This document shows positions 13,537 through 34,048 of a DNA stretch of 64,000 nucleotides, piece after piece (the stretch's first letter is position 1; each line of letters begins with the position of its first letter). This DNA is from Frateuria soli (GTDB taxonomy: Bacteria; Pseudomonadota; Gammaproteobacteria; Xanthomonadales; Rhodanobacteraceae): positions 2,480,001 through 2,544,000 of the forward strand of contig NZ_CP088252.1 in NCBI RefSeq assembly GCF_021117385.1, in the 5' to 3' direction. A model generated the notes under the pieces. It did not search any database. It was given only the letters and a program-made list of their open reading frames with translations, and was not told the origin of the DNA. Made by a program: the position numbers and the translations under genes.

Positions 13537-13641
13537 GGTCCCCTCCTGTGGTTGGACAGCCAGTATAGGTGGCCGAATGGCTTGCCGGAGCGCCCCCTGC
13601 GCGCGAGCGCAATGCCCGGCGGCGGCCCGCGGGATGCGCTG

Positions 13642-15018: not shown

Positions 15019-15046
15019 GCGAGGCTCCCGCCCCGGGCCAGCGGTG

Positions 15047-15385
15047 TCAGTGGCACGCGGGGTCCATCGGGGTCTGCGGGCAGTTCACCGCCGGGCGACC
15101 ATTGCGGTCCATGGTGCCCATGGTGCCGACCCCGGCGTTGCCGGAGTGCTGCTGCGCCGCGTTGGCACGCGGCGGGGCGAGGCTGTCACGCTCCTTGAAC
15201 TTGAAGTGCGACGTGGAGCTGGACTTCTGCGCCGGGAGCGCGGCATCGGCCCGGTAGCTCGCCGTGGAAGCCGGCGCCGGCGCACTCCAGCTGTCGCTGG
15301 CGTGGGCGGTCGGCGATGGCACCGACTGGGCGTGGGCCCCGGCGGCGGCCAACAGGGAGGCAAACACGACGATCCGGATACGCAT
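15047..15385 (-). CDS. Small secreted protein of unknown function between regulator and kinase
   Basis: 112-residue protein I do not recognise. A clear Sec signal peptide (MRIRIVVFASLLAAAGAHAQ, cleavage probably after AHA) is followed by about 90 low-complexity residues rich in Ser, Ala and Pro. There is a short charged patch (SHFKFKERDSLAPP). The last 20 residues hold the only two cysteines of the mature protein (NCPQTPMDPACH). It lies between the sigma-54 regulator and the sensor kinase, 28 nt before the kinase start, so it may be an accessory sensor, ligand or export substrate of this locus. The position favours co-transcription; function is unknown. Confidence 0.7.
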   Translation of the reverse strand: MRIRIVVFASLLAAAGAHAQSVPSPTAHASDSWSAPAPASTASYRADAALPAQKSSSTSHFKFKERDSLAPPRANAAQQHSGNAGVGTMGTMDRNGRPAVNCPQTPMDPACH

Positions 15386-15466
15386 GGTTCCTGCTCCTTG
15401 GGGACTGGCGCCGATCATCCCGCGCCCCTTCGATAGCGGCAACCGCCGCGATGCACGCCCAGGCGA

Positions 15467-15532
15467 CGCAGGGTGGACTTCAGCCCAGCAGCCCTGCGCC
15501 GGTGCCTGGCGGGGGCCGAAGCCCACCCTGCG
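15467..15532. repeat. Imperfect inverted repeat in the regulator/small-gene gap
   Basis: CGCAGGGTGGACTTCAGCCC pairs with GGGGCCGAAGCCCACCCTGC (few mismatches) just after the regulator stop codon. It could act as a partial terminator or mRNA-stability hairpin separating the regulator from the last two genes. There is no U-tract. Confidence 0.6.
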
Positions 15533-15537
15533 CGCAC

Positions 15538-16875: not shown

Positions 16876-16953
16876 CTTTTTCCTGCACATGTCGGCATGG
16901 ATGCATCTCCACGCCAAAAGGTTGCCACAGGTTGGCCAAAGGGGAAGCGCCCT

Positions 16954-18183: not shown

Positions 18184-18193
18184 GGCGTGTTCC

Positions 18194-19498: not shown

Positions 19499-19531
19499 TC
19501 CGTGTGCTCCCTGGGTGATCTGCACGGGTAC

Positions 19532-19541
19532 GGGGGGGGGG
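19532..19541. repeat. Homopolymer of ten G (ten C on the coding strand)
   Basis: Run of ten G on the plus strand between permease pairs 4 and 5, about 34 nt upstream of the pair 5 A start. It is the longest homopolymer I noticed. Such tracts slip during replication, but here the tract is outside coding sequence. Confidence 0.9.
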
Positions 19542-19556
19542 TGGCGGGCCGGCGGC

Positions 19557-20771
19557 TCACACCGACCGGGTGGCCACCACCGGCGGCACCGCCGCGGCGC
19601 GCAGCGCCGGCGCCAGCACGGCCAACTGGCCGAGACCCCACAGCACCAGCGCGCCGGCCGGCAGGTACAGCACCGGCAGGCGCGGCAACTCGTAGCGGGT
19701 CATCAGCAGCAGGTTGATGCCGAAAGCCAGCACCATGCCCAGCACGATGCCGAAGCTGACGATGAGGAAATTCTCGGTCTGGAAGTAATGCAGGATGTCG
19801 CTTCGCGTGGCGCCCAGTGCGCGACGCACGCCGATCTGCTTGCGCCGCTGCGCCACCCAGAAGCTGGTCAGCCCCACGATGCCCAGCGCGGTCACCAGCA
19901 GCAACGCGACGATCACGCCCACCAGCATGCCGGCCATGGCGCGGTCGTCGCGGAAATAGCGGTCGCGCAGCTGCGGCAAGGTCTGGCTTTGTTCAATATC
20001 GACCACCACTTCCGGGGCGATCCTGGCGATGCGCTCGCGTGCATCGCGCAGCACGCGATCGAGCTGGCCCGGCGCGGCGCGCAGCAGGTAGACGCCGGCG
20101 AGGTGCTCGCCCGGCAGCGCGGGCACGAACACCGACCACTCCCGCGTCTCCGGGCCACCCTCGCCGCCGCTCGGCCGCGCGAGGTGATCCAGCACACCCA
20201 TCACGCGATAGGGCCGGTCGGCGCACCAGATCACATGGCCGAGCGGGTCGGCGCCCGGCCACAGGTGCGTGGCCAGCGCGCGGGTCACCAGCACCGGCGC
20301 ACTCCTTGGCAGGAAGTCGGCCACCGCGCTCATGTCGCTGGTCTGCGGCCCGCGGCCGGACACCACGCGCAGGCCGAGCGCCTCGAAGCTGCCCGGCCCG
20401 CCCACGTAGAAGTCGACCACGCCGACGATCTTCTGCGCCTCCCGGCTCAGCTTGATTCCCGCGGTGCCGGCGTGCTGCCCGAACGGCACCGCGTTGATCA
20501 CGCTGACCGACTGCATGCCGGGAATCGTGCGCAGCCCGTCGAGCACGCGCGCATTGAGGTCGGTGGCCTGCGCCGGGTCGTAGCCGGTGAGCTTGAGCCC
20601 CGCCAGCGAGGCCTCGTCGACGCCGCTGGGCATGCCGACCTGCTGCACCCGGTTGGCGATCAGGAAGCACGCGTTGCAGAGCACCGCGCAGGCGAGCGCG
20701 ATTTCCAGGACGATCAGCAGCGTGGCCAGGCGATGGCGGCGCAGCGCAGCGAGGACGGGTTGGATCTGCAT
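19557..20771 (-). CDS. FtsX/MacB-type ABC permease, B subunit of pair 4
   Basis: 404-residue B-type permease starting MQIQPVLAALRRHRLA, then helix LLIVLEIALACAVLCNACFL, periplasmic domain, and three C-terminal helices with coupling segment [20 protein letters not shown] and tail RAAAVPPVVATRSV. The start is the first ATG matching the B-type N-terminus; the frame continues 24 codons upstream without similarity. The 124-nt gap to its A partner is much longer than in pairs 3 and 5, and contains only short direct repeats (CCACGGATGA). Confidence 0.9.
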   Translation of the reverse strand: MQIQPVLAALRRHRLATLLIVLEIALACAVLCNACFLIANRVQQVGMPSGVDEASLAGLKLTGYDPAQATDLNARVLDGLRTIPGMQSVSVINAVPFGQHAGTAGIKLSREAQKIVGVVDFYVGGPGSFEALGLRVVSGRGPQTSDMSAVADFLPRSAPVLVTRALATHLWPGADPLGHVIWCADRPYRVMGVLDHLARPSGGEGGPETREWSVFVPALPGEHLAGVYLLRAAPGQLDRVLRDARERIARIAPEVVVDIEQSQTLPQLRDRYFRDDRAMAGMLVGVIVALLLVTALGIVGLTSFWVAQRRKQIGVRRALGATRSDILHYFQTENFLIVSFGIVLGMVLAFGINLLLMTRYELPRLPVLYLPAGALVLWGLGQLAVLAPALRAAAVPPVVATRSV

Positions 20772-20895
20772 GAGCTCTCGGCTCCTTTCAGGGAGTGCGG
20801 CCACGGATGACCGCTTGTCTGTCCGCACCACGGATGAGCGCACAGGCTTTCATCACGCGGCCCGGGTGGCGGCTTTCACGCGCAGGTACGGCGCA

Positions 20896-22218
20896 TCAAA
20901 GCGTCTTCAACTGCAGGCCAGGCGCCACGCGACTCGCTCGCAGCGCCGGCACGAAACCGGCAAGCAGGCTGGCCAGTACCGCCAGCACGAAGGTGGCCAG
21001 GAACATCCCGCCGTCCAGGTGCACCAGGTCCGCGTACTCGACCGGCTGGCGCCGCACCAGCCACAACCCCAGCAGGGTCAGCAGCCAGCCGCCGAGGCCA
21101 CCGAGCAGTCCGATCATGCCGGCCTCCACCAGACACTGGGCGAACACGGCGCCACGGCTGGCGCCGAGCGCGCGCCGCACGCCGATCTCGCCACTGCGGC
21201 GCAGGAACTTGGCCAGCAGCAGGCCCACCGTGTTGCACAGGCAGATAAGCAGGAACGCGAACGCCAGCACCACCTGCAGGCGCACGTCGCCGGGCACAAC
21301 GTGGTTGAAGTCCAGCCACTGCATGAGGTCCATCATGCGGGTGTTGTCGCCGTGCACGAAGCGACCGAGCACCTTCTGCTGGGCGGCATAGTCGGCCACG
21401 AAGCGACGGTAGCCTGCGACCTTGGCCGCATCGTCCAGTTGCACCCACAGCGCGACCCACACGCAGGGTGCGGTCTGCAGATGCTTGAGCCCCTCGAGGT
21501 CGCCCCAGCAGGTGAACACGTTGAACTCGTTGCCGGCGATGTCCTGCGCCGTTCCGAAGGGCAGGAAGACATCCTCCGGCCTGGAGTAGAACGACGAGGT
21601 CTTGCCCTCCGAGAAGCGGCCACCGGCCACGTCGTAGAACTGGGGCGAGGGACGCCAGGGCGCCAGCACGCCCACGATGCGCACGTCCGTATCCTTCAGC
21701 CGCAGAGTGCGGCCGACTGAATCGGCGCCGCCGAACAGCCGGTTGTTGAGGTCGGAGGAGATCACCGCCACGCGCGTGCGCTGCGCATCGTCGGCCGGCG
21801 TCCAGGCGGTGCCGTAGCGCAACGGCACGGCGAACATCGGAAAGAAGTCGCTCGTGGTCGAGAGCACCCGTGCCATCTGCGGCGGCAGGTTCACGCCTGG
21901 CGCACGCATCTTCAGCTCGGTGCTGGCGATCAGCGCCTGGCGATCTGCCCGCTGCGCGCTCCACAGGTCCACGGCGGAACGGTAGTCCATCATGTCGCGC
22001 GGCTGACTGTCCGCCGACGGGCTGTCGGTGGGGTCGACCTGGGGGTAGAACAGCGTGGCGCTGCGCCCGGGCATCGGGTCGCCGGAGAGCAGGTGCATCA
22101 CCGTCAGCGTGGTCATGCTGGCACCGATGCCCACTGCGATGGCCAGCACCATCAGCACGGTAAGCGCCTTGTTGCGCTTGAGGCTGCGCAGGGCCAAGTC
22201 GAGGTAGTAGCCGAACAT
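20896..22218 (-). CDS. FtsX/MacB-type ABC permease, A subunit of pair 4
   Basis: 440-residue A-type permease: MFGYYLDLALRSLKRNKALT, N-terminal helix, periplasmic domain with the Cys pair FTCWGDLEGL ... TAPCVWVALW, then three C-terminal helices with coupling segment [20 protein letters not shown] and tail RASRVAPGLQLKTL. The start ATG at 22218 matches the other A subunits. A long tract of paired CTCTCCCC repeats precedes it. Confidence 0.9.
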   Translation of the reverse strand: MFGYYLDLALRSLKRNKALTVLMVLAIAVGIGASMTTLTVMHLLSGDPMPGRSATLFYPQVDPTDSPSADSQPRDMMDYRSAVDLWSAQRADRQALIASTELKMRAPGVNLPPQMARVLSTTSDFFPMFAVPLRYGTAWTPADDAQRTRVAVISSDLNNRLFGGADSVGRTLRLKDTDVRIVGVLAPWRPSPQFYDVAGGRFSEGKTSSFYSRPEDVFLPFGTAQDIAGNEFNVFTCWGDLEGLKHLQTAPCVWVALWVQLDDAAKVAGYRRFVADYAAQQKVLGRFVHGDNTRMMDLMQWLDFNHVVPGDVRLQVVLAFAFLLICLCNTVGLLLAKFLRRSGEIGVRRALGASRGAVFAQCLVEAGMIGLLGGLGGWLLTLLGLWLVRRQPVEYADLVHLDGGMFLATFVLAVLASLLAGFVPALRASRVAPGLQLKTL

Positions 22219-22240
22219 CAGGCGCGCTCCTCCGTCCCCT

Positions 22241-22414
22241 GCTCCCCCTCCCCGCTGGGGAGAGGGCTGGGGTGAGGGGTGGCGCGGAGCAAGGGCTGCC
22301 GCCCGACTTGAATATTCGCTTCGAGTGCCTTCATCGATTTGCCCTTCGAAAAAACCAGCTATCCCGCGAGCCGCGGCCCTCACCCCAACCCTTTCCCCGC
22401 AGGGGAGAGGGAGC
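22241..22414. repeat. Inverted pair of CTCTCCCC-type repeats inside the permease locus
   Basis: Two copies in opposite orientation (22241-22279 and 22378-22414) separated by about 100 bp fill the 200-nt gap between pairs 3 and 4. Each can form its own hairpin, and together they can pair over a longer distance. Confidence 0.75.
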
Positions 22415-22418
22415 TTCG

Positions 22419-23642
22419 TCACACGCTTCGCGTGGCCACCACCGGCGGCACCGCGGCCGCGCGCATCGCGGGACCGAGCACCGCCATCTGCCCGATCAGC
22501 CACAACGCGATCGCGCCCACCGGGAAGTAATAGGCAGGCAGCCGCGGCAGTTCGTAATGCAGCATCAGGAACAGGTTGATGCCGTAGGCCAGCACCATGC
22601 CCAGTGCGATGCCGATGGTCGCCAGCAGGAAGTTCTCGGTCTGGAAGTAGCGCAGGATGCTGCCGCGGGTCGCGCCCAGCGCACGCCGCACGCCGATGGT
22701 GCGTCGCCGCTGCGCGACCCAGAAGCTGCCCAGGCCGACGATGCCCAGCGCGGTGACCACCAGCAGCGCGATGCACACGCCCAGCAGCAGGCCGGCCATC
22801 GCACGGTCGTCCTGGAAGAAGTCGGCACGGATGTCGTCGAAGGTCTTCTTGTCCAGGATCACCCGGTGCGGGTCGGTCCTGCGTAGCTCGGCGGCCGCGG
22901 CGGCGAGCACCCGGTCGCGGTCCGCCGGCGCGGTACGCAGCACGAAGCGGCTCGCGTTGCCGGTGTCCACCCGGAACGGGAACACCATCGACCACTGTGC
23001 CGTGGCATCGCCGTTGAACAGGGAGGGTCGGATCAGTCCGGCGACCACGCCGATCACCCGCACCGGCTGGTCGGCAAGGTAGATGGGCTTGCCCAGCGGG
23101 TCCTGGCCGGGCCACAGCTTTTCGCCCAGGCCGCGGGTGATGATCACGCCGGTGACCTTCCTGCGCACCGCCTCGTCGCGCTGTATCGCGTCGAAGTCGA
23201 CGAACTCGTCGCTGTTGAAGAGCCGGCCGGCGATCAGTTGCGTTCCGAAGGTCTCCAGTGCGTTCTCGCCGTAATACATGGTGGCGTTGAGGGTGGCCTG
23301 GGTCTGCTTCGGATCGAGCTTGATGCCGCTGTTCCAGGAGCTGTTGGTGAACGGCACTTCGTTCACCAGCGCCACCGACTTCACGCCGGGGATCTGGCGC
23401 AGCGCCAGCAGGTCTTCCTGGGTATGCGCCTTGGCATCGCCCGGCTTGCCGATGCCGAAGGCCTGCACCTCGACCAGTTCGTGCTCGGCCACGCCGCTCT
23501 GCATCTTCATGCGGTCGAGCCGCTGGCTGATCAGGAATACCGCGTTGCAGACGATGGCGCAGGTCAGCGCGATCTCCAGCACCAGCAGCAGGGCGGTGAT
23601 CTTGTGCCGGCGCAGCGTGGACAGGATCGGGAGGATGTCCAT
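22419..23642 (-). CDS. FtsX/MacB-type ABC permease, B subunit of pair 3
   Basis: 407-residue B-type permease: MDILPILSTLRRHKITALLL, membrane helix, periplasmic domain without a Cys pair, and three C-terminal helices. Coupling segment [20 protein letters not shown]; tail RAAAVPPVVATRSV. It starts one nucleotide after the stop of its A partner, so translation is likely coupled and subunits made in equal amounts. Confidence 0.9.
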   Translation of the reverse strand: MDILPILSTLRRHKITALLLVLEIALTCAIVCNAVFLISQRLDRMKMQSGVAEHELVEVQAFGIGKPGDAKAHTQEDLLALRQIPGVKSVALVNEVPFTNSSWNSGIKLDPKQTQATLNATMYYGENALETFGTQLIAGRLFNSDEFVDFDAIQRDEAVRRKVTGVIITRGLGEKLWPGQDPLGKPIYLADQPVRVIGVVAGLIRPSLFNGDATAQWSMVFPFRVDTGNASRFVLRTAPADRDRVLAAAAAELRRTDPHRVILDKKTFDDIRADFFQDDRAMAGLLLGVCIALLVVTALGIVGLGSFWVAQRRRTIGVRRALGATRGSILRYFQTENFLLATIGIALGMVLAYGINLFLMLHYELPRLPAYYFPVGAIALWLIGQMAVLGPAMRAAAVPPVVATRSV

Positions 23643-23643
23643 G

Positions 23644-24948
23644 TCAGTTGCTCTTCAGTTGCAGCGCGGGGGTGACCTGGCAGGCACGCCAGGCGGGAAG
23701 CAGGCCGGCCAGCAGCGTGGCGCCGACGGCGAGAAGGAAGGTGGCCAGCAGCATGGCCGGGTCCAGATGCGCGAGTGCGGCGTAGTCGGAGGGCTGCTTG
23801 CGCACCAGCCACAGGCCGAGCAGCGCCAGCAGCAGGCCAGCGCAGCCGCCGGCCAGGCCGATCACGCCGGACTCCACCAGCAGTTGCACGAACACCTCGC
23901 GGCGCGAGGCACCCAGCGCGCGGCGCACGCCGAGCTCGCCGCTGCGACGCAGGAACTTGGCCAGCATCAGCCCCACGGTGTTGACCAGGCAGACCAGCAG
24001 GAAGCCCAGCGCCAGCCATGCCTGCAGCCGCACGTCGCCCGGCACGACCTTGTTGTAGTCCAGCCAGCCCATCAAGTCGGGCAGTCGCACGTTGGGCGGG
24101 CGCTGGAAGCGGCCCAGCGCCTTCTGCTCCTGCGAGTAGTGCACCAGGAACTGCTTGTACGCGGCCGCCTTGGCCGGCGTGTCCAGCTGCGCCCAGAACT
24201 GCAGCCACACGCAGGGCGCGGTGTCCATGTGATCCGGGTCGGATGGCTTGCCTCCCCAGCAGTCAGTCGAGCCGTTGCGTCCGAGCTTGAGTTCGAAGGC
24301 GGTGCCCAGCGGCAGGTACACGCCCTCCTGGCCGGAATAGCTGCCGTTGTTGAGGTCGTAGAAGTGCGGCGAGGGACGCCAGTCGTCCATCACTCCGACG
24401 ATGCGGAACGCCACGTCGTTCATGCGCAGCGTCTGGCCGGTGCTGTCGCGGCCCTCGAACAGTTTCTGGTTGAGCTTGCGCGAGAGCACCGCGACGCGGG
24501 CATGGGCCTGGTCGTCGGCCGGGCCCCAGCCACGGCCATAGAGCATCGGCACGCCGAACATCGGGAAGAAGTCGGCGGTGGTGTAGCGGGCGTCCTCGAA
24601 GAAAGGCTCGATCGCCGACTGCGCCGGCTGGACCGGTACCGCACCACCGGTCATCAACGCCTGGCGGTGGGCCCGCCCGGCGCGCAGCAGGTTCATGCCG
24701 TCAGTCCAGCTCACCTGCGCCGGCGGGTCCTCGCCGGGCTGGTAGCCGTCCATGTCCCGCGGGTCGAGCTGCGGGTAATACAGCTGCGCGCTCCGGCCCG
24801 GCAGCGGATCGCCCGAGAGCACGTGCAGCACGGTCAGCGTTGTCATGCACGCACCGATGCCCAGCGCGATGGCCAGCACCATCAGCGCGGTGAGCGCCTT
24901 GTTGCGCCTGAGGCTGCGCAGGGCGAGGTCGAGGTAGTAGCCGAACAT
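23644..24948 (-). CDS. FtsX/MacB-type ABC permease, A subunit of pair 3
   Basis: 434-residue A-type permease: MFGYYLDLALRSLRRNKALT, N-terminal helix, periplasmic domain with the Cys pair STDCWGGKPSDP ... DTAPCVWLQFW, then three C-terminal helices. Coupling segment [20 protein letters not shown]; tail WRACQVTPALQLKSN. The tail is intermediate between pairs 1-2 ([11 protein letters not shown]) and pairs 4-5 (RVAPxLQLK), which helps order the duplications. Confidence 0.9.
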   Translation of the reverse strand: MFGYYLDLALRSLRRNKALTALMVLAIALGIGACMTTLTVLHVLSGDPLPGRSAQLYYPQLDPRDMDGYQPGEDPPAQVSWTDGMNLLRAGRAHRQALMTGGAVPVQPAQSAIEPFFEDARYTTADFFPMFGVPMLYGRGWGPADDQAHARVAVLSRKLNQKLFEGRDSTGQTLRMNDVAFRIVGVMDDWRPSPHFYDLNNGSYSGQEGVYLPLGTAFELKLGRNGSTDCWGGKPSDPDHMDTAPCVWLQFWAQLDTPAKAAAYKQFLVHYSQEQKALGRFQRPPNVRLPDLMGWLDYNKVVPGDVRLQAWLALGFLLVCLVNTVGLMLAKFLRRSGELGVRRALGASRREVFVQLLVESGVIGLAGGCAGLLLALLGLWLVRKQPSDYAALAHLDPAMLLATFLLAVGATLLAGLLPAWRACQVTPALQLKSN

Positions 24949-25037
24949 GCTAGGCGCTCCAGGAGTGCAGGCAACGCCGCCGCGGCGGCATGCGGGTGCT
25001 GAAGAAGGGGCGGCGGCCGGCCGCGGGCGGTGGCAGC

Positions 25038-26273
25038 TCAGCCGGCACGGGTCGCCTCCACCGGTGGCACGCGCGAGGCGCGCAGGGCGGGCGCCAGCGC
25101 CGCGGCCTGCCCGAGCAGGAGCAGGACGGCCACGCCGGCGGCGAGGTAGGTCGGTGACAGGCCCTGCATGCCGAAGCGCAGGATCAGCCACAGGTTCATG
25201 GCCAGCGCCAGCAGCACGCCGAGCAAAATGCCGCCGCCGCTGACCAGCAGGTTCTCGACCAGGAAGTAGCGGACGATGTCCCGCCGGGTGGCGCCCAGCG
25301 CCCGCCGGACGCCGATCTGCCGCCGCCGCTGGCCGACGCGGAAACTGGTCACGCCCACGATGCCGGCGGCGGTGATCGCCAGCAGCACCGCGCTGATCAC
25401 GCCCATCAGCGTGGCCATGCCGCGGTCGCTCTCGTAGGCACGCTCGCGCACCTGGGCGAAGCTCAGCACCCCCATCCGGGGGTCGAACATGCGGCGCGGA
25501 TTGCGGGCGACCAGCGCCGCGGGCGCCGCGCGCATCGCCGCGGCAAGCTGGCCCGGGTGCGTGCGCACGATGTAGTAGGTGCCCAGGGTACTGGTCAGCC
25601 GCCGCGGCACGATCACCACCCGGTGCGCGAAGTCCGCGGCCCAGCGCGCCACGCTCTGCGCCTGCAACCTTTCGACCACGCCCACGATGGTGGCCGGGTT
25701 GCCCGCCAGGTAGAGAGTGCGGCCGACCGCCCCATCGCCATGGAACAAGGTGTCTGCCAGCGCCCGGGTGATGATCACCTGCGCCGGGTCGAGGCGGTCC
25801 TGCGCGGCCATGACCCCGATCTCCCCGGCGCGGAAATCGCGCCCGGCGACCAGCTTCAGGCCCAGCGTCCGCACGAAATGCTCGTCCGCGAAATACACCG
25901 TCGCACCGGTCGTGTCGGTCAGCTGGCCGGGGCGGAGCCGGATGCCGTCGTCCCAGCCAGCCCCGCGCAGCGGATAGGAATTGCTGGTGGTCACGTCGGC
26001 CACCCCGGGCAAGCGGCGCAACACCTCCAGGTCCGCGCGGGCTTCGGCGTCCAGTTGCGCATAGGAGGCCTTGCCCGCCCATTCGTTCTGGATCACGAAA
26101 ATGTTTGCCTCGTCCAGGCCGGTCGGCTCGGACAGGTGCGACAGGCGCTGGTGCACGATGAACAGTGCGTTGCACAGGATCGCCAGGGTCAGCGCGACCT
26201 GCAACGCGATCAGCACGGCCCCGGCCTTGTGGCGGCGTAGTGCGGAGAGAATGGGCCCGACCTGCATGTCCAT
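25038..26273 (-). CDS. FtsX/MacB-type ABC permease, B subunit of pair 2
   Basis: 411-residue B-type permease: MDMQVGPILSALRRHKAGAV, membrane helix, periplasmic domain, three C-terminal helices with coupling segment [20 protein letters not shown]. The tail RVPPVEATRAG, with Glu where pairs 3-5 have Val, matches the pair 1 B subunit. Either ATG at 26273 or 26267 could start it; 26273 has GAGG at better spacing. It lies eight nucleotides after its A partner. Confidence 0.9.
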   Translation of the reverse strand: MDMQVGPILSALRRHKAGAVLIALQVALTLAILCNALFIVHQRLSHLSEPTGLDEANIFVIQNEWAGKASYAQLDAEARADLEVLRRLPGVADVTTSNSYPLRGAGWDDGIRLRPGQLTDTTGATVYFADEHFVRTLGLKLVAGRDFRAGEIGVMAAQDRLDPAQVIITRALADTLFHGDGAVGRTLYLAGNPATIVGVVERLQAQSVARWAADFAHRVVIVPRRLTSTLGTYYIVRTHPGQLAAAMRAAPAALVARNPRRMFDPRMGVLSFAQVRERAYESDRGMATLMGVISAVLLAITAAGIVGVTSFRVGQRRRQIGVRRALGATRRDIVRYFLVENLLVSGGGILLGVLLALAMNLWLILRFGMQGLSPTYLAAGVAVLLLLGQAAALAPALRASRVPPVEATRAG

Positions 26274-26281
26274 GGCGCGCC

Positions 26282-27595
26282 TCAGTTGGACTTCAGTTGC
26301 CAGGCCGGCTGCACCTGGGCAGCACGCCACGTCGGGTAGAACGCCGCCAGCACCGTCGCGGCGATGGCGACCGCCAGCGAAAGCGCGACCAGCCGCAGGT
26401 CCAGATGCGCCAGGCGGGCGATCTGCGGCTGGAACACCAGCCCGATGCCGAACATGCCCACGCCGGTGAGCAGCACGCCCAGCGCGCCACCGGCCAGTCC
26501 GACCATGCCGGCCTCGGCCAGGAACTGGAGGTAGATGTCCCGTCGCGAGGCGCCCAGCGCGCGGCGCACGCCGATCTCCGGCGCGCGGCGGAGGAACTTG
26601 GCCAGCAGCAGGCCGATCGTGTTGACCAGGCAGATCATGAAGAAGCCGATGGCCACGGCCAGCGCGATCCGGCTTTCGGGCGGAACGGCGCCGCGATAGT
26701 CGAGCCACTGGCGCACGTCGCGCAGGCGCACGTTCGGCGCCCAGCCGAACCGGCCCGCCTCGCGCAGCCGACGGGCGTAGCCTTCCAGGAAGCTGCGGTA
26801 GCCCTGCACCTGGGCGGCATCGTCCAGCTCCACCCACGGGCTGACCCACACGCATTCGCCGCGCAGCCAGCTCTCCCGGTCCGAGCCGCGCTTGCCGCCG
26901 CTGCCGCAACTGTTGTTGCCGTAGGTCTCGATGCCGGCGGCGACGGCGAAATTGAAGGGCACGAAGATCTGCGGCGGATCGGCGTAGCCGTTGCTGCTGA
27001 ACATGTCGAAGAAGCGCGGCTGGGGGTTCCAGTCGTCGATGACGCCGGCGACGCGGTACGCCTGGTCGTCCATCACGACCGTGCGGCCCACGCTGTCCGT
27101 TCCACCGAACAGGCGCTGGTTGAGCTGGCGCCCGATCACCACCACCGGTGCGCGTGCCTCGTCGCCGTCCGCGTTCCAGCCCCGGCCGTACAGGAACGGC
27201 ACGTCGAACATCGGGAAGAAGTCGGCGAAGGTGGCGTAGCCCAATGCCTTGAACGGCAGCCGGCCCGGTTGCTGCGGCATCACCGACAGCCCGACCTGGT
27301 AGAGCATGGTCTGGCGCGGCGCGCGACGGGCCTGCATCAGGGCCATCGCGTCGGTGTAGGTGAGCGCATCCGGCGGCTCGCCGTTGCGGTTGTAGCGCGG
27401 CCCGCGGTTGTCCAGCTGCGGCACGAACAGGCGCGAGGACTTCTGCGGGATCGGATCGCCGGAAACCACCCGGAACACGGCGTAGGTGACCATCGACGCG
27501 GCCACGCCGAAGCCGATGGACATCACCATCAGCGCAGTCAGCAGCGGGTTGCGCCGCAGGCTGCCGAGGCCGAGTTGAAGGTAGTGAACGAACAT
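26282..27595 (-). CDS. FtsX/MacB-type ABC permease, A subunit of pair 2
   Basis: 437-residue A-type permease: [21 protein letters not shown]-terminal helix, periplasmic domain with the Cys pair GNNSCGSGGKRG ... LRGECVWVSPW, then three C-terminal helices. Coupling segment [20 protein letters not shown]; tail [15 protein letters not shown], identical over the last 15 residues to the pair 1 A subunit. The RAPEIGV motif (rather than RSGExxV) groups it with pair 1. Confidence 0.9.
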   Translation of the reverse strand: MFVHYLQLGLGSLRRNPLLTALMVMSIGFGVAASMVTYAVFRVVSGDPIPQKSSRLFVPQLDNRGPRYNRNGEPPDALTYTDAMALMQARRAPRQTMLYQVGLSVMPQQPGRLPFKALGYATFADFFPMFDVPFLYGRGWNADGDEARAPVVVIGRQLNQRLFGGTDSVGRTVVMDDQAYRVAGVIDDWNPQPRFFDMFSSNGYADPPQIFVPFNFAVAAGIETYGNNSCGSGGKRGSDRESWLRGECVWVSPWVELDDAAQVQGYRSFLEGYARRLREAGRFGWAPNVRLRDVRQWLDYRGAVPPESRIALAVAIGFFMICLVNTIGLLLAKFLRRAPEIGVRRALGASRRDIYLQFLAEAGMVGLAGGALGVLLTGVGMFGIGLVFQPQIARLAHLDLRLVALSLAVAIAATVLAAFYPTWRAAQVQPAWQLKSN

Positions 27596-27612
27596 CGGGT
27601 ATCCATGGTTTT

Positions 27613-27752
27613 GCTCCCGTTTCCCACGGGGAGAGGGTCGGATCAGGGCAAGAGCGAAGCGAAAGCCCGCCCTTGCCCGGCTGCTCGTACCGCCATCGGC
27701 AGGCAAGCCCGCTCTCTGGCTCCAGCCCCGGTCCCCAAGGGAAACGGGGCTC
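27613..27752. repeat. Inverted repeat spanning the pair 1/pair 2 gap
   Basis: CTCCCGTTTCCC at 27614-27625 is the near-perfect inverse of GGGAAACGGGGC at 27739-27750, with a GGGGAGAGGG fragment next to the first arm. It spans most of the 160-nt gap and could bring the gap into one stem. Confidence 0.5.
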
Positions 27753-27755
27753 CGA

Positions 27756-28997
27756 TCAGACGCTGCGGGTCGCCTCCACCGGCGGCACGCGCGAGGCCTT
27801 CATCGCGGGCGCCAGCACGGCGCCCTGCCCGAGCAGCAGCAGCGCGATGACGCCCGCCGCCACGTACAGCAGCGACAGCCGCTCCATCTCGAAATGGCTC
27901 ACCAGCCACAGGTTCATGCCGATTGCCAGCGCCGCGCCGACGATGACACCGCCCGCACCGATCAGCAGGTTCTCGGTGAGGAAGTAGGAAAGGATGTCGT
28001 GCCTGGTCGCGCCGAGCGCACGGCGCACGCCGATCTGCTTGCGTCGCTGGCCGACCCAGAAACTGGTCAGGCCGACGATGCCTGCGGCGGTGATCGCCAG
28101 CAGCACCGCGCAGACCACGCCCATCAGGATCGCCATGCCGCGGTCGCTCCTGTAGGCCTGCTCGCGCACTTCGGCGAAGGTGCGCACGCCGCGCTCCTCC
28201 GGGATCACGCGCATGCGGTTGGTCTCGAACAGCAGCGTCGGCACGGCCTTGGTCATCCGTGCCAGTTCGCCGGGCCGGGTGCGTACCAGGTAGTTGCCGA
28301 AGCTGCCTTCCAGCAGGAACGGCAGGAGCACCGAGTTCTCCGCAAAGTTGGTTGCCCAGTTGCCGGTCCAGGGCACCTGCAGGCGCTCGACGATGCCCAC
28401 GATGGTGGCCGGCTTGGTGCTGGACAGGTAAACCGGTTTACCCAAGGCGTTGCCATCGGGGTAGAGCTTGCTGGCCAGCGCCTGGCTCACGATCACCGGC
28501 ACGTTGGTTTCGAAATCCCGCGGGTCGACCCAGCGCACTTCCTCGGGGCGGAAGTTGCGCCCGCCCACCAGTTTCAGCCCCATGGTCGCGAGCGCGTGCT
28601 CGTCGGTGAAGTACAGCGTGGTCTGCGCGGGCGCCCGCCGGACGTCGTCCTTGACGGAGGGCTTGGTGTCGGCACCGAGCGACCAGCCACCGCCGCGCAG
28701 CGGGTAGGAGTTGATCATGGTCGCGTCGACCACGCCGGCTTTCTGGCGCAGCGCGGCCAGGTCGGTCTCGGTCAGCGACTCGGTCGCCTTGCCGTCGGCG
28801 CCGACCCAGCGGTTGTTGACTGCGAGCAGGTCGGTTTCGACCAGCCCGGTGGGCCGGGACAGATGCTCGGTGCGCTGGCGGATGATGAACAGCGCGTTGC
28901 ACACGATCGCCAGCGTCAGCGCGATCTGCAGTGCGATGAGCACGGTGCCGGCCTTGTGGTGCTTGAGGGCGGCCAGGATGGGCTTGATCTGTAGCAT
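27756..28997 (-). CDS. FtsX/MacB-type ABC permease, B subunit of pair 1
   Basis: 413-residue B-type permease: MLQIKPILAALKHHKAGTVL, membrane helix, periplasmic domain without a Cys pair, and three C-terminal helices with coupling segment [20 protein letters not shown]. Tail RVPPVEATRSV. Its Shine-Dalgarno sequence (GAGGAGG, nine bases before the ATG) is the terminal repeat of the inserted element at 29003-29270, so the insertion supplies its ribosome-binding site. Confidence 0.9.
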   Translation of the reverse strand: MLQIKPILAALKHHKAGTVLIALQIALTLAIVCNALFIIRQRTEHLSRPTGLVETDLLAVNNRWVGADGKATESLTETDLAALRQKAGVVDATMINSYPLRGGGWSLGADTKPSVKDDVRRAPAQTTLYFTDEHALATMGLKLVGGRNFRPEEVRWVDPRDFETNVPVIVSQALASKLYPDGNALGKPVYLSSTKPATIVGIVERLQVPWTGNWATNFAENSVLLPFLLEGSFGNYLVRTRPGELARMTKAVPTLLFETNRMRVIPEERGVRTFAEVREQAYRSDRGMAILMGVVCAVLLAITAAGIVGLTSFWVGQRRKQIGVRRALGATRHDILSYFLTENLLIGAGGVIVGAALAIGMNLWLVSHFEMERLSLLYVAAGVIALLLLGQGAVLAPAMKASRVPPVEATRSV

Positions 28998-29002
28998 GGT
29001 CT

Positions 29003-29270
29003 AGAGCCTCCTCAATGCCTTTCCATAGCCCGCGCCGGGAACTGTTTGCGCGCAGACTGAGGAAGAACGCAGGAACGTATGCCGATACGTGACGGAGTGA
29101 TGACGCGGGGATGCGGGCAAACAGGCCCGGCCCGAAGAGTTGGTCATGTGCGCCCACCAGGCGGCGCGGCGCGGCTTGAGCTGACGGCCAGTCAGGCGCT
29201 GCGCCACGCACCACCACCTGGCGAGCGCACATGACCAACGCGGGCTATGGAAAGGCATTGAGGAGGCTCT
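29003..29270. mobile_element. 268-bp MITE-like element with 32-bp perfect terminal inverted repeats
   Basis: The ends 29003-29034 and 29239-29270 are perfect 32-nt inverted copies (AGAGCCTCCTCAATGCCTTT... and its complement). A further 14-nt inverted pair (TTGGTCATGTGCGC at 29140-29153, complement at 29225-29238) abuts the right end and closes an imperfect hairpin with tip CTGACGGCCAGTCAG. There is also a small CGTAT-GCCG-ATACG hairpin near 29076-29089. No transposase or credible gene fits. It sits exactly between the A and B genes of pair 1; removing it would leave a gap of about nine nucleotides, as in pairs 2 and 5. No clear target-site duplication is visible. Confidence 0.75.
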
Positions 29271-29274
29271 CCGC

Positions 29275-30582
29275 TTAGTTGGACTTCAGCTGCCAGGCAG
29301 GCTGGACCTGCGCGGCCCGCCAGGTGGGATAGAACGCCGCGAGCACGGTGGCCGCCACCGCTACCACCACGGTCAGCGCCACCAGCGAGACGTCCAGCGT
29401 GGCCAGGCGCGCGATCTGTTCGTCGAACACCCAACCGACGCTCAACATGCCCAGTCCGGTCAGCACCAGGCCGAGTGCTCCGCCGGCCAGGCCGACCGTG
29501 GCCGCCTCGATCAGGAACTGCATGTAGACCTCGCGGCGCGAGGCACCCAGCGCCCGGCGCACGCCGATTTCCGGCGCGCGGCGCATGAATTTGGCCAGCA
29601 ACAGGCCGATGGTGTTGACCAGGCAGATCAGCAGGAAACCCAGCGAGACCATCAGCGAGATCTTCGACTCCGGCGGCACGACCTTGTTGAAGTCCAGCCA
29701 GTCGGTAACGTCGCGCAAGGCTACGTTCGGCGCCCACTTGAAGCGGCCGGCACGCTGCTGTTCGGCGGCATAGCCGGTAAGCCAGCGCCTGTAGGTATCG
29801 GCATCGGCCCGGGTCGGAAGCTCGACCCAGTAGCCGACCCAGATGCATTCCGAACGCAGCCACGCGTCCCAGCCGTTGCCCGGGTCGGCGTTGCAGTTGT
29901 TGTTGCCGGCGGTGGGCATCTGCAGGTCGATCGCGCGGGTGAAGGGAATGAACAGGGCGATCGGATCGCCGAAGCCGCCGGTGTTGACCGGATCGAAGAA
30001 CAGCGGCTGCGGGTCCCACGCGTCCGTCACGCCGGTGATGCGGTAGTCGTGCCCGTCCAGGTTGATCGTCTTGCCGACGCTGTTGGCGCCGTTGAACAGC
30101 TTGTCGTTGAGCTCGCGACCGATCACCGCGACCGATGCGTGCGCATCGTCCTGCGCCTGGCTCCAGGCGCCGCCGTAGAGGAACGGGATGTCGAACATCG
30201 CGAAGGCGTCGCCGTACCAGGCGTAGCTGTTGGCGGTGATCGGCAGGCGATTCCCGTCGGCCGGGATGACCGACGGCGACACCGGATACAGCGCGGTCTG
30301 GCGCTTGGCTTTGTGTGCGCGCATGAAGGCCATCGCGTCGGTGTAGGACATTGCCGAGGGCGGCTCGCCCTGCTCCAGGTCCTCCGGCTTCCAGTTGGCG
30401 ATCTGGACCGCGAAGAGTTCGTCGGATTTCTGCGGAATCGGATTGCTGGAGGTCGCCCGGAACACCGAGTAGGTGATCATCGAGGCGGCCACGCCGAAGC
30501 CGATCGCCATCACCATCAACGCGGTCAGCAGCGGGTTGCGGCGGAGACTGCGCAGGCCAAGCTGGAAGTAGTAGGCGAACAT
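29275..30582 (-). CDS. FtsX/MacB-type ABC permease, A subunit of pair 1
   Basis: 435-residue A-type permease: [20 protein letters not shown], helix [20 protein letters not shown], a periplasmic domain of about 250 residues with the Cys pair [12 protein letters not shown] ... [11 protein letters not shown], then three C-terminal helices ([52 protein letters not shown]). Coupling segment [20 protein letters not shown]; tail [15 protein letters not shown]. The start at 30582 matches all other A subunits. The stop lies four nucleotides from the inserted element. Confidence 0.9.
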
Positions 30583-30623
30583 GTCGGGGTTTCCGGAGTG
30601 GAGGGCAACGGCGCGGTGCAGCC

Positions 30624-30654
30624 CCCTCTCCCCCGGCATGGCCGGGGGAGAGGG
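30624..30654. repeat. Perfect 14-bp GC hairpin between ATPase and first permease
   Basis: CCCTCTCCCCCGGC (30624-30637), loop ATG, GCCGGGGGAGAGGG (30641-30654). There is no U-tract on either strand, so it is more likely a CTCTCCC-family repeat that stabilises upstream mRNA or attenuates transcription than a full terminator. Confidence 0.8.
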
Positions 30655-30665
30655 CTTTGTCAACG

Positions 30666-31379
30666 TCAGGCGTCGGCGACGCGAGCGTTGTGCGCGTGGA
30701 AGCGCGGCTCTTCGGCCAGGTCAACCACCTGGCCGTCGATGATGTGCACGTTGCGCTGGGCGCGGGCGGCCAGTTCCGGGTCATGCGTGACCATGACGAT
30801 GGTGGCGCCCTCGCGGTGGATCTCCTCCAGGAGTTCCATCACGCCGCGGGCCATCTGGGTGTCCAGGTTGCCGGTCGGTTCGTCCGCCAGCAGCAGGCGC
30901 GGGCTGCCGGCCAGTGCGCGGGCGATCGCCACGCGCTGCTGCTGGCCGCCGGAGAGTTCGGCCGGATAGTGCTTGGCGCGCGAGGCCAGGCCCACGCGCT
31001 CGAGCGCGTCCATGATCCGCTGCTTGCGCTCGGCCGCCTTCATGCCGCGGTAGCGCAGCGGCACCTCGACGTTGTCGTAGACGTTGAGGTCGGGGATCAG
31101 GTTGAACGCCTGGAAGATGAAGCCGATCTTCTCGTTGCGGATCTTCGAGCGGGCGTTGTCGTTGAGCTGACTCACCTCGATGCCGTCCAGGTGGTAGTGG
31201 CCACCGGTGAAGGTCTCCAGCAGGCCGGCGATGGTCAGGAAGGTGGTCTTGCCCGAACCGGACGGGCCGGTCACGGCGACGAACTCGCCTTCCTTCACGT
31301 CGATGTTGAAGTCACGCAGCGCGTAGGTCTCCACCACTTCGGTGCGGTAGACCTTGGACAGGTGGGTCATTTTCAGCAT
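30666..31379 (-). CDS. ABC transporter ATPase, LolD/MacB family
   Basis: 237-residue nucleotide-binding protein, the only ATPase of the locus. Walker [10 protein letters not shown] near residue 39, Q-loop [17 protein letters not shown], signature [15 protein letters not shown], Walker [14 protein letters not shown]-loop VTHDPELA. This is the LolD/MacB (type VII, mechanotransmission) subclass, which drives FtsX-fold permeases and moves substrates within the periplasm or out through TolC rather than across the inner membrane. It precedes five permease pairs and follows the adaptor gene; I infer it energises all five. Confidence 0.95.
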
Positions 31380-31416
31380 GGTGGTTGCCTCGTTGGCGGG
31401 TTGGTTGTTGGGGTTG

Positions 31417-31506
31417 CGGGAGTCGGGAGTCGGGAGTCGGGATTCGGAAAAGACGGGCTCGGGAGCTTTTGCCTACGAATCCCGAATCCGCAATCCCGAA
31501 TCCCGG
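31417..31506. repeat. GGGATTCGGGA-type inverted repeat
   Basis: Three tandem GGGAGTC units plus GGGATTCGG on one side and CGAATCCCGAATCC...CGAATCCCG on the other form an inverted repeat filling the gap between adaptor and ATPase genes. Another complete copy is at 43451-43548 and a fragment at about 47568. Confidence 0.75.
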
Positions 31507-31509
31507 CCA

Positions 31510-32781
31510 TCAGTCACTGATCGCGACCCTGGCCGCATCCTTGAAGTTGTCGGTGCCGGAGATCACGATCCGGTCGCCTTCCTTCAGGCCGTCCCGGATC
31601 TCGACCTTGTCGATGCTGCTGGCGCCCACGCGGATCGGCTTCTTCTCGGCGATGCCCTCGTGCACGACGTAGGCGTAGTTGCCGCCGGACTCGTCGACGA
31701 ACGAGCCACGCTGCACGGTCAGCACGTCGTCGCGCTTGTCGAGCAGGATCCGTACGGACAGGCGCTGGTTCTGGCGCAACTGCTTGGGTGTGCTGCCCGC
31801 GAAGCGCAGGCGCGCGGCCACCTCGCCATTGACGACCTCGGGCGAGATCGCGCTGACGATGCCCTTCCAGGTATGGCCGTTGCCGGTGATCTCGCCGGCC
31901 ATGCCGATCGCCAGGTCGCGGGCGAAGCTTTCCGGCACCTGCATTTCCACTTCGAGTGCCGACAGGTCGATCACGCTGAGCAGCTTGGCGTCCTTGGCCA
32001 CGGTGGCGCGCTCGGCGATGAACAGCTGGCCGACCTGGCCATCCACGGGCGATTTCACGTTGAGGTCGTCCACCTGGCGCTTGAGGTCCTTGACCAGCAG
32101 CTCCTGGCGCTCGTGCGCGAGCTTCTTGGACTTGATGTCGAAGTTCAGGCTGTCGTTGTCCATGCCCAGGTCCGCCTTCGCATGCTGGGTGGTCAGCCTG
32201 GCCTTCTGCAGGGTGTCCTTGGCGCGGTCCACGTCCATGCCGGAGACGGCGCCGAGCTTGAACGCCTTCTCGTTGCGGGCCAGGTCGCGCTCGGCCGCCT
32301 GCTGGTCGATCAGCGCGTTGTCGAAGGCCTTCTGCAGCGCCGAGCGCTGCTTGCGGGCCTCGATCTGGGCGCGCTGGTATTCCACCTCCATCGCGTCGGC
32401 GTTGGACTCTTCCTGCAGCAGCTTGTTGGTCAGTTCGGGGCTGTCGACCACGGCCAGCACCTGGCCTTTCTTCACCGTGTCGCCCGCATGCACCTTCAAC
32501 GTGACCGCGCCGCCGGAAGTGGCGTAGAGCGTGGGGCTGACCGCCGCCACCACCTTGCCTTCGGCCGCGATGTCGCGCACGAACAGGCCGCGTTCGACGG
32601 TGGCGAAGGACAGGCGCGAGGCGCTCACCGAGGCGTCGGCCGAGAACAGCCGCATCGCGGTGGGCAGCGCAAAGCCCAGCCCCACCAGCACGGCCAGGCC
32701 GATGCCGGCGATGAGCAACTGGCGCTTGCGGTTGGGTTTGACCTCGACCAGGCGGTCTTGAGCGGAGGTGTCGCGAATCAT
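31510..32781 (-). CDS. Periplasmic adaptor (membrane fusion protein, MacA/HlyD type)
   Basis: 423-residue adaptor, first gene of the permease locus. A short cytoplasmic N-terminus (MIRDTSAQDRLVEVKPNRKR) and one membrane helix (LLIAGIGLAVLVGLGFALP) are followed by the first lipoyl half (SGGAVTLKVHAGDTVKKGQV). A long helical hairpin (about residues 110-240) comes next, then the second lipoyl half (VKSPVDGQVGQLFIAERATV) and beta-barrel and membrane-proximal domains. MacA-type adaptors bridge the ABC permease to a TolC-like channel; no tolC is present here. The start at 32781 has AGGTCAGGA upstream and lies 37 nt from the sigma-54 promoter. Confidence 0.93.
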   Translation of the reverse strand: MIRDTSAQDRLVEVKPNRKRQLLIAGIGLAVLVGLGFALPTAMRLFSADASVSASRLSFATVERGLFVRDIAAEGKVVAAVSPTLYATSGGAVTLKVHAGDTVKKGQVLAVVDSPELTNKLLQEESNADAMEVEYQRAQIEARKQRSALQKAFDNALIDQQAAERDLARNEKAFKLGAVSGMDVDRAKDTLQKARLTTQHAKADLGMDNDSLNFDIKSKKLAHERQELLVKDLKRQVDDLNVKSPVDGQVGQLFIAERATVAKDAKLLSVIDLSALEVEMQVPESFARDLAIGMAGEITGNGHTWKGIVSAISPEVVNGEVAARLRFAGSTPKQLRQNQRLSVRILLDKRDDVLTVQRGSFVDESGGNYAYVVHEGIAEKKPIRVGASSIDKVEIRDGLKEGDRIVISGTDNFKDAARVAISD

Positions 32782-32817
32782 CGGGCGGTCCTGACCTGAA
32801 GTGACTGGGGCAGGTTG

Positions 32818-32834
32818 AGCAATCGCCGTGCCAA
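32818..32834 (-). promoter_or_regulatory. Sigma-54 (RpoN) -24/-12 promoter of the adaptor-ATPase-permease locus
   Basis: On the minus strand the sequence reads TTGGCACGGCGATTGCT. This matches the RpoN consensus TTGGCACG-N4-TTGCW at every defined position, with the correct GG-N10-GC spacing. Transcription should start near 32808, giving a leader of about 26 nt that contains the AGGTCAGGA ribosome-binding site. The same locus encodes a sigma-54 activator with an intact GAYTGA loop. Confidence 0.88.
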
Positions 32835-32894
32835 GTCGGGTCGGAGCCGCGCAACCCTTGGGGTTGCTGGTTTTCCGCAAGGGCGCGCCGGACG

Positions 32895-32946
32895 TGTCCG
32901 CTGTCCGCGGACACCGGCACGGACAGGCGGACAAGCGGGGCGGACA
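32895..32946 (-). promoter_or_regulatory. Probable upstream activator sites (TGTCCGC/GCGGACA cluster)
   Basis: A perfect 12-nt palindrome TGTCCGCGGACA (32902-32913) is flanked by further half-sites: TGTCCGC at 32895-32901, CGGACA at 32920-32925, GCGGACA at 32927-32933 and at 32940-32946. All lie 62-113 bp upstream of the -24/-12 element, the usual range for NtrC-type enhancers. The binding protein is inferred to be the regulator at 15538-16875. Confidence 0.65.
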
Positions 32947-33079
32947 GGTCGCCACGCCGGCAGGAGCGCACCCGTGCGCTCTTGCACCGGGCAACTACGC
33001 CATTGCGAGCGGGCCCTTCATCCCCGTGCCCCCTCCGCGGGGAGGAGCGGGCAAAGGCTCGACCGGGAGGGCCCTCCCC

Positions 33080-34048
33080 TCACCCCACCGCCTGCTCGAT
33101 CCGCTGCTTCAGCGCCGCGTCGATCCGCGGCACCAGCTCCAGCGCCGCCAGGTTCTGCTCCAGCTGGTCGCGCCGGCTCGCACCCAGCAACACGGTGGAC
33201 ACGTGCGGGTTGGCCAGGCACCAGGCAAGCGCAAGCTGGGCCTGGCTCACCCCCAGCTGCTGCGCGATCGGCGCCAGGTGGCGCACGCGCTCCACGCGCT
33301 CACGCCCCGACCCGAGCACCGTCTCGCGCAACCACTCGTAGCCAGGCTGCGCCAGCCGCGAATCATCGGGAATGCCCTCGTTGTAGCGCCCTGCCAGCAG
33401 ACCGGACGCCAGCGGCGACCAGATCGTCGTGCCCATGCCGAAGCGCTCGTACAGCGGCGCGTACTCGCGCTCGACGCGCTCGCGGTGCAGCAGGTTGTAC
33501 TGCGGCTGCTCGGCCACCGGCGCGTAGCAGTGGTTCTCGCGCGCGATCCGGTGCGCCTCGGCGATCGCCTCGGCCGGCCACTCGCTGGTGCCCCAATAGA
33601 GCACCTTGCCCTGGCGCACCAGCGTGTCCATCGCCGCCACCGTCTCCTCGACCGGCGTGTCCGGGTCGGGGCGGTGGCAGAAGTAGAGGTCCAGATGATC
33701 GACCCGCAACCGCTCCAGCGCCTGGTGGCAGGCTTCGATGACGTGCTTGCGCGAGAGCCCTCGCTGGGTGGGCTTAGGATGGTCCACCGCCCCGAAGAAC
33801 ACCTTGCTCGACACGCAATAGCTGTCGCGCGGAAAGCGCAGGTCCGCGAGCACGTCGCCCATCAACCGCTCGGCCTCGCCGTTGTTGTAGGTTTCGGCGT
33901 TGTCGAAGAAATTGACGCCCCGATCCCATGCCAGCGCCAGCAGCTCGCGCGCCTGCGCGCGCCCCACCTGCCGGCCGAACGTCACCCACGCGCCGAAGGA
34001 CAGCGCGGACAGTTGCAGGCCGGTGCGGCCAAGGCGGCGGTAGAGCAT
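33080..34048 (-). CDS. Aldo/keto reductase (Kv-beta/YghZ-like)
   Basis: 322-residue NADPH-dependent oxidoreductase of the AKR superfamily, close to the voltage-gated K+ channel beta-subunit type. The catalytic tetrad is visible: Asp and Tyr in FFDNAETYNNGEAE, Lys in VSSKVFFG, His in DLYFCHRPD. The C-terminal cofactor-binding motif is LLGASRRDQLEQNL. Standard length. Physiological substrate unknown. It is on the same strand as the permease locus but lies upstream of the sigma-54 promoter, so it is probably an independent gene. Confidence 0.92.
   Translation of the reverse strand: MLYRRLGRTGLQLSALSFGAWVTFGRQVGRAQARELLALAWDRGVNFFDNAETYNNGEAERLMGDVLADLRFPRDSYCVSSKVFFGAVDHPKPTQRGLSRKHVIEACHQALERLRVDHLDLYFCHRPDPDTPVEETVAAMDTLVRQGKVLYWGTSEWPAEAIAEAHRIARENHCYAPVAEQPQYNLLHRERVEREYAPLYERFGMGTTIWSPLASGLLAGRYNEGIPDDSRLAQPGYEWLRETVLGSGRERVERVRHLAPIAQQLGVSQAQLALAWCLANPHVSTVLLGASRRDQLEQNLAALELVPRIDAALKQRIEQAVG

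Follow-up and report, generated by a model that had tools for sequence, protein, structure and literature searches.

The site at positions 32818-32913 of the window (the whole 64,000-nucleotide stretch of Frateuria soli DNA analysed) is predicted to be the main promoter of an operon encoding an ABC-type tripartite pump with many permease pairs. The most convincing reading of the data is that it forms part of a sigma-54 switch, in which a palindromic enhancer would be recognised by the operon's own regulator and would control both the pump operon and a set of unlinked targets; we consider this very probable. The sigma-54 promoter with upstream activator sites postulated in an earlier note is strongly supported, as a sequence-based prediction, by conservation, helical spacing and co-occurrence with the regulator. 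The picture drawn there was, however, too small, since the regulon extends to genes of small membrane proteins and, in some genomes, to tolC.

Promoter box and palindromes in the window

The predicted −24/−12 (sigma-54) promoter element, TTGGCACGGCGATTGCT, is located on the minus strand at positions 32818-32834. Read from 32834 to 32818, it matches the RpoN consensus at every defined position, as the earlier note had claimed, and fits TTGGCACG-N4-TTGCW exactly; it also conforms to the sigma-54 promoter pattern TGGCAC-N5-TTGCW, with the GG and GC dinucleotides ten bases apart. The start offset of sigma-54 promoters is usually 12 bases, and a transcription start near position 32808 would fit this box. 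When up to two mismatches were allowed, the box pattern gave a single match in the window, compared with 3.0 expected by chance.

The core palindrome, TGTCCGCGGACA (32902-32913, no strand assigned), a putative activator site, is the sole exact copy in the window and is placed 67 bp upstream of the box. It is accompanied on the minus strand by four exact half-sites: (i) CGGACA at 32895-32900, (ii) TGTCCG at 32920-32925, where the aligned consensus columns read TGTCCG, (iii) TGTCCG at 32928-32933, where they read GTCCg, and (iv) the outermost TGTCCG at 32941-32946. The perfect palindrome and four further half-sites previously described 62-113 bp upstream of the box were thus recovered at the stated distance, all in exact form. 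The box and the palindromic sites are contained within a 300-bp gap between an aldo/keto reductase gene (which ends at 33080) and the start of the adaptor gene (32781). No sigma-70 promoters were found in a scan of positions 13400-33200, and no second sigma-54 box was seen on the coding strand toward the regulator in a scan of the operon.

Organisation of the operon

All genes of the operon are encoded on the minus strand, in the order adaptor, ABC ATPase, ten permeases, regulator, small secreted-protein ORF and histidine kinase. They comprise (i) the gene of a HlyD/MacA-type periplasmic adaptor (31510-32781, starting with ATG at 32781; Pfam HlyD_D23 and HlyD_3), (ii) an ABC ATPase of 237 residues (30666-31379; Pfam ABC_tran), (iii) ten MacB_PCD/FtsX permease genes forming five A/B pairs (16954-30582), identified with Pfam and typed by their N-terminal sequences, (iv) a sigma-54-dependent response regulator (15538-16899, with a likely start at 16875) composed of a receiver, an AAA+ domain with the GAYTGA loop and HTH_8, (v) a predicted secreted small protein of 112 residues (15047-15385), situated between the regulator and the kinase and recognised by sequence inspection only, and (vi) a sensor histidine kinase (13642-15018; Pfam HATPase, with HAMP below the Pfam cut-off) with two hydrophobic stretches. 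The GAYTGA-bearing regulator that had been placed in the same gene set is present, and its sigma-54 activation domain was identified.

The permeases alternate between the A-type and the B-type (MxIxPILAALRRHK-like), with one ATPase and one adaptor ahead of them. Where the adaptor and the regulator are linked, the distance between them ranges from approximately 3.4 kb (G004 and G047) to 35.6 kb (G022); judging from these distances, the permease array seems to grow and shrink. The 112-residue predicted secreted protein ends with NCPQTPMDPACH, a cysteine tail reminiscent of the small-protein family described below.

Terminator-like sites occur along the operon in approximately the number expected by chance (10 found, 7.5 expected). 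Six of them are on the coding strand, five being intragenic and one (22373-22356) lying between two permease genes. Autoregulation would require the transcript to run for approximately 16 kb, through the ten permease genes, as far as the regulator.

Conservation of the adaptor promoter

Fifty-six related loci containing the adaptor gene were retrieved, mostly from Dyella, Rhodanobacter and Frateuria, with some from metagenome bins; like the genomes discussed below, they are non-independent samples. The −24/−12 box (TGGCAY-N5-TTGC) precedes the adaptor in all 56, and the exact palindrome TGTCCGCGGACA is present in 55, the exception being L037, where the corresponding position reads TGTCCGCGGACG. 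An alignment of these loci revealed that the half-site just upstream of the palindrome is largely kept and that most of the intervening bases are not. In four loci (L018, L045, L046 and L056) the palindrome is located about one helical turn closer to the box (spacer of 55-56 rather than 65-68). It is this preservation across related loci, and not base composition, that sets the exact elements apart from chance.

Of 57 promoters, 28 have an IHF-like site in a constant position, compared with 0.3 in mononucleotide shuffles; it is absent from the promoter of the window and from those of its four nearest sisters. In the adaptor mRNA leaders of the L011-L064 set (e.g. L018:9953-10000), a 5-bp hairpin is placed just before the ribosome site. 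Outside the Frateuria group it occurs in 52 distinct leaders, where its pairs alternate between G-C and A-U and each is formed in at least 50 of the 52, and it was not found in five leaders of the Frateuria group, including that of the window.

Spacing and distribution of the composite element

A composite pattern consisting of the palindrome, 42-72 bases and TGGCAY-N5-TTGC was run on 59 genomes of the family to which the window belongs. It matched 98 distinct sites in 46 of these genomes, all of which were read, and a reversed control pattern gave zero matches in the same 59 genomes. The scan proposed in the earlier note, for the same palindrome near other −24/−12 promoters, thus yielded one further site in the genome of the window and, at the level of the family, this much larger set.

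The spacers between the palindrome and TGG in the 98 sites fall into three classes, 43-44 (3 sites), 53-56 (10 sites) and 63-69 (85 sites), with none in between. The classes lie approximately one turn of DNA apart, in agreement with the face-of-helix constraint on upstream sites. Such phasing is to be expected if a protein bound to the palindrome has to face the polymerase across a loop. It holds across adaptor, small-protein and permease genes, many of the 98 sites being mutually orthologous.

The strict pattern was missed in 13 of the 59 genomes, although these searches scored limited first-look candidates per genome and their absences are not absolute. The adaptor is present in twelve of the 13, in each case preceded by an exact box and three or more half-sites. 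At the level of the class, a strict search for the palindrome plus TTGC matched 2 of 369 genomes, both from the family of the window, in a draw that included only two genomes of this family and three others of its order. A pattern with a looser −12 element matched 25 of 101 genomes of the order, 13 of them outside the family. The idea that the switch is restricted to the family was accordingly dropped, as the palindrome also occurs, next to this less strict −12 element, elsewhere in the order.

Genes downstream of the composite element

The 98 sites precede genes encoding the adaptor (45 sites), small membrane proteins (39), permease-like proteins (6) and tolC or pcm-tolC (2); the remaining six precede hydrolase-like (2), DUF885-like (2), small secreted-protein (1) and transposase-like (1) genes. 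The class tally originally comprised 44 adaptor, 39 small-protein and 15 other genes, a truncated adaptor (L124) having been reassigned by eye to give 45. The small-protein site L112, which was outside the search pattern for these proteins, was also added by eye. The 14 other genes were named from their sequences, and Pfam confirmed one tolC, one DUF885 and one hydrolase gene.

In the genome of the window the second composite site (3049335) precedes a gene for a small protein of 68 residues, which is followed by genes that we take, by recognition, to be trmL-like and ubiJ-like. Six genomes assigned by inference to Frateuria contain 23 palindromes (those of L067, L127, L129 and L164 from the 98-site set among them). 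Each genome has 3-4, whereas 0.4 would be expected from base composition, and every one of the 23 is found at one of four shared loci, namely upstream of the adaptor gene, the small-protein gene, pcm-tolC or a DUF5916 gene.

The small proteins (48 copies, 27-73 residues) share a core like MKFETLMLRSLFVACLLVCGLILGAM, and the shortest stop right after the hydrophobic stretch, which was detected in all three examples tested. M26 is present in 48 of the 48 copies and C19 in 46, neither of them built into the search pattern; the early K/N/Q (position 2) and E were fixed in that pattern and are invariant by construction. A two-cysteine tail is added in 27 of the 48. Measurement of 38 sites placed the first start codon 38-58 bases past the −12 element; in 27 of these 38 the next gene after that of the small protein is trmL. 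No match was found in Pfam (four proteins tested) or NCBIfam (three tested). Differences between codon positions (0.34, 0.20 and 0.37) are compatible with coding, but not decisive alone.

In another family of the order (genomes G483 and G489; loci L229 and L230, family f184), composite sites precede a different small protein of 55 residues (MNYRRSTRAQ...), and small proteins may therefore recur as an output beyond the family of the window.

Palindromes at pcm-tolC and the DUF5916 gene

The promoter of tolC was read in 30 of the 59 genomes of the family. The gene follows pcm in all 30 loci and in L099, and in 20 of the 30 a palindrome is located before pcm-tolC at −166 to −173 (L066:2040-2051 and L258-L286). 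No recognisable −24/−12 box was found between the palindrome and pcm-tolC in these loci. The two tolC genes with a composite site have spacings of 67 bp (L145) and 53 bp (L099), which are within the usual classes. In the genome of the window a TetR-like gene is divergent from pcm-tolC.

The fourth genomic copy of the palindrome (L065:2008-2019) is at the DUF5916 gene, where five genomes of the genus Frateuria likewise revealed no recognisable −24/−12 box. This site follows a gene that appears, by eye, to be MFS-like, and is conserved in all but one of the six Frateuria genomes. A second motif, TGAC-N4-GTCA, was present in exact form 12-13 bp past the palindrome in all 19 tolC sites tested, and a similar motif, in relaxed form only, at approximately 12 bp in all five DUF5916 sites; mononucleotide shuffles were used in this test. 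Two of the four palindromes in the genome of the window (pcm-tolC and DUF5916) thus lack a box, and the palindrome is therefore not tied to sigma-54 everywhere.

The regulator, the kinase and their co-occurrence with the sites

The receiver, Sigma54_activat and HTH_8 domains of the regulator all score above the Pfam cut-off, which is the domain set of the NtrC family. The consensus of the loop contacting sigma-54 is GAFTGA, and GAYTGA is its aromatic variant. This variant is present in 28 of 30 orthologues, including that of the window, the other two (L305 and L306) reading GAYTSA. The helix SRQALYRR is invariant in all 30 and differs in the nearest paralogue of the same genome. A paralogous response regulator encoded at G000:C1:333637-334977 (L002) is 47% identical, with the aligned loop GAYTDA.

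Orthologues of the regulator (at least 68% identical) were detected in 57 of the 59 genomes of the family, and the two genomes without it are also without the adaptor. In one of these, G023, the single composite match precedes a gene that looks transposase-like by eye; this site is probably due to chance, because the genome lacks both the regulator and the adaptor.

At the level of the order, an adaptor homologue was present in 57 of 101 genomes. A box with at least two half-sites was found in 36 of the 42 adaptor promoters from genomes encoding an orthologue of the regulator (identity of 60% or more) and in none of the 15 from genomes without one (Fisher p 2.5e-9, with genomes treated as independent despite their shared ancestry). 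The box alone occurs in 41 of 42 and 3 of 15 promoters, respectively, two of these three being from incomplete genomes. Among the six regulator-positive promoters that fell short, five have at most one exact half-site, including that of G489, for which just 211 bases were read, and G501 has four half-sites and no box according to the pattern applied. In the regulator-negative group, the incomplete genomes G463 and G469 provided only 87 and 165 bases upstream, and for G440 and G431, in which the start was not located, the scan covered 601 bases of both strands. G494 (regulator 61%, no adaptor match at the threshold) was left out.

This co-occurrence is partly trivial, because the regulator and the adaptor mostly share one operon. 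In G008 and G427, however, the two genes are more than 1 Mb apart on one contig, and the adaptor promoter keeps its box and half-sites; the link is therefore not only one of operon membership. The separation also means that control in these two genomes would be exerted in trans, and not by autoregulation via this transcript. These observations point to the operon's own regulator as the probable activator acting at the TGTCCG sites.

According to the hydropathy profile of the kinase, its two hydrophobic stretches are separated by a short loop, an arrangement suggestive of a signal being sensed within or at the membrane.

Proposed mechanism and alternative explanations

The scheme outlined here is modelled on the protein families concerned, from which kinase signalling, looping and the opening of sigma-54 polymerase are deduced. 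The kinase would sense an envelope signal via its membrane helices and phosphorylate the regulator, which would then oligomerise on the TGTCCG sites. Looping of the DNA, to which IHF may contribute in roughly half of the relatives, would bring the regulator to the sigma-54 polymerase, which it would open with its GAYTGA loop. The circuit would amplify itself if the transcript reaches the regulator and kinase genes. The same activator would induce at least one single-helix microprotein, with tolC and orphan permease genes as additional targets in some genomes. Several points count against this best explanation: two of the four palindromes in the genome of the window have no recognisable box, the IHF-like site is missing from the window and its four nearest sisters, a terminator-like site lies between two permease genes, six of the 42 regulator-positive genomes fall short, and three of the 15 regulator-negative promoters have a box-like sequence. 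A palindrome of 12 bp is, moreover, short for a Fis-type dimer.

A chance resemblance of GC-rich sequence to consensus elements can practically be dismissed. With two mismatches allowed, it is true, both motifs are no less frequent in the window than in shuffled sequence, but the exact forms are conserved in position across the 56 loci, which refutes this explanation, and the 3-4 palindromes found at the same loci in each of the six Frateuria genomes contrast with the 0.4 per genome predicted. More weight, albeit small, attaches to the possibility that the sigma-54 promoter is real and its palindrome is bound by another sigma-54 activator encoded elsewhere. The genome has several sigma-54 activator-like genes, one of which encodes a product 47% identical over nearly its whole length, and the gene of the operon's regulator is approximately 16 kb from the promoter, or more than 1 Mb away in two genomes. 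This explanation nevertheless seems improbable: the sites follow the operon's regulator across families (36/42 versus 0/15, in a comparison scored for this regulator alone), its DNA-binding helix is invariant in all 30 orthologues, and paralogues of 43-48% identity reach the search threshold in 16 of the 59 family genomes, fewer than the 46 with composite sites.

It is similarly improbable, and if anything slightly more so, that the palindrome is the operator of a factor unrelated to sigma-54 (e.g. a repressor), lying close to sigma-54 promoters at part of its targets but, at tolC and DUF5916, to promoters of the ordinary kind. The palindromes without a box, those of the DUF5916 gene and of pcm-tolC (20 of 30 loci), would agree with such a role, as would the second motif, TGAC-N4-GTCA, 12-13 bp after the palindrome in the 19 tolC sites tested. 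The helical phasing to the box at many unlinked genes is, by contrast, a need of an enhancer and not of a simple operator, and the composite tolC sites (L145 and L099) keep the usual spacing classes. The reading that we favour thus remains the sigma-54 switch operated by the regulator of the pump operon.

As an extension of this reading, we tentatively suggest an order-wide envelope regulon, whose second constant output may be the family of single-helix microproteins (27-73 residues). These could either feed back on the short-loop kinase as its ligands or serve, each in place of another, as partners of a modular pump, in which one ATPase and one adaptor would be combined with exchangeable permease pairs, numbering up to about twelve if operon length is a guide. 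This suggestion is a possible one, to which we give rather less than even credence.

Significance

Each part of the system is of a classical type: the activator belongs to the NtrC family, the promoter to the sigma-54 class, and the pump combines FtsX permeases with a MacA-like adaptor. The newest part is the family of tiny membrane proteins, for which the libraries searched gave no match. In the titles and beginnings of abstracts of open-licence literature we found nothing on this regulon, of which a prior description is possible, and the exact palindrome was found in that literature, within the same coverage, only for a human gene.

These results extend a single promoter to a defined regulon that can be searched for by its signature and is common to Dyella, Rhodanobacter, Frateuria and other families of the order. 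The microprotein family gains a regulatory address, the gene of the likely outer-membrane channel of the pump, TolC, is marked by the same switch in some genomes, and an unusual permease array is made experimentally accessible through one regulator and a handful of targets.

Comparison with known systems

The regulator resembles AtoC, ZraR and NtrC of the NtrC family, which likewise combine a receiver, an AAA+ domain and a Fis-type HTH in one protein and have a partner kinase; palindromic upstream sites with a −24/−12 promoter, as at this operon, are also characteristic of these systems. Its best NCBIfam match is AtoC (355 bits, with 714 needed), and its best PDB sequence matches are 4l4u and 1ny5. 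Both the regulator and the ATPase score below all curated NCBIfam cut-offs among the matches listed. The system described here differs from NtrC-family relatives in its predicted targets, which are an ABC pump, small membrane proteins and sometimes tolC, and in the GAYTGA loop in place of the GAFTGA consensus.

With MacAB-TolC the operon shares a HlyD/MacA-type adaptor, FtsX/MacB_PCD permeases and an ABC ATPase, and pcm-tolC carries the same palindrome. The adaptor matches the RND_mfp model (137.8 bits, above the cut-off of 94.9), whereas its score for the MacA equivalog (68.2 bits) is below the required 342. The fusion of the ATPase to one FtsX permease that defines MacB was not observed: the 237-residue ATPase and the ten permeases are separate, these ten being served by one ATPase and one adaptor, and tolC is unlinked. 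The best NCBIfam match of the ATPase is DarD (255.6 bits) of the darobactin exporter DarB-DarC-DarD, and the adaptor matches DarC (82.6 bits), both scores being below the respective cut-offs of 375 and 450 bits. The permeases also resemble ADOP, the duplicated permease (TIGR03434), in that the B-type matches its second half and the A-type its first (one of each tested; 169 and 186 bits, far below the cut-off of 622); whereas ADOP is a chain of approximately 800 residues, the halves are separate here and are repeated as pairs.

AcrZ and MgrB are very short membrane proteins with a single helix, which act together with a pump or a kinase. The small proteins encoded downstream of the composite sites resemble them in being very short and in having a predicted single helix.
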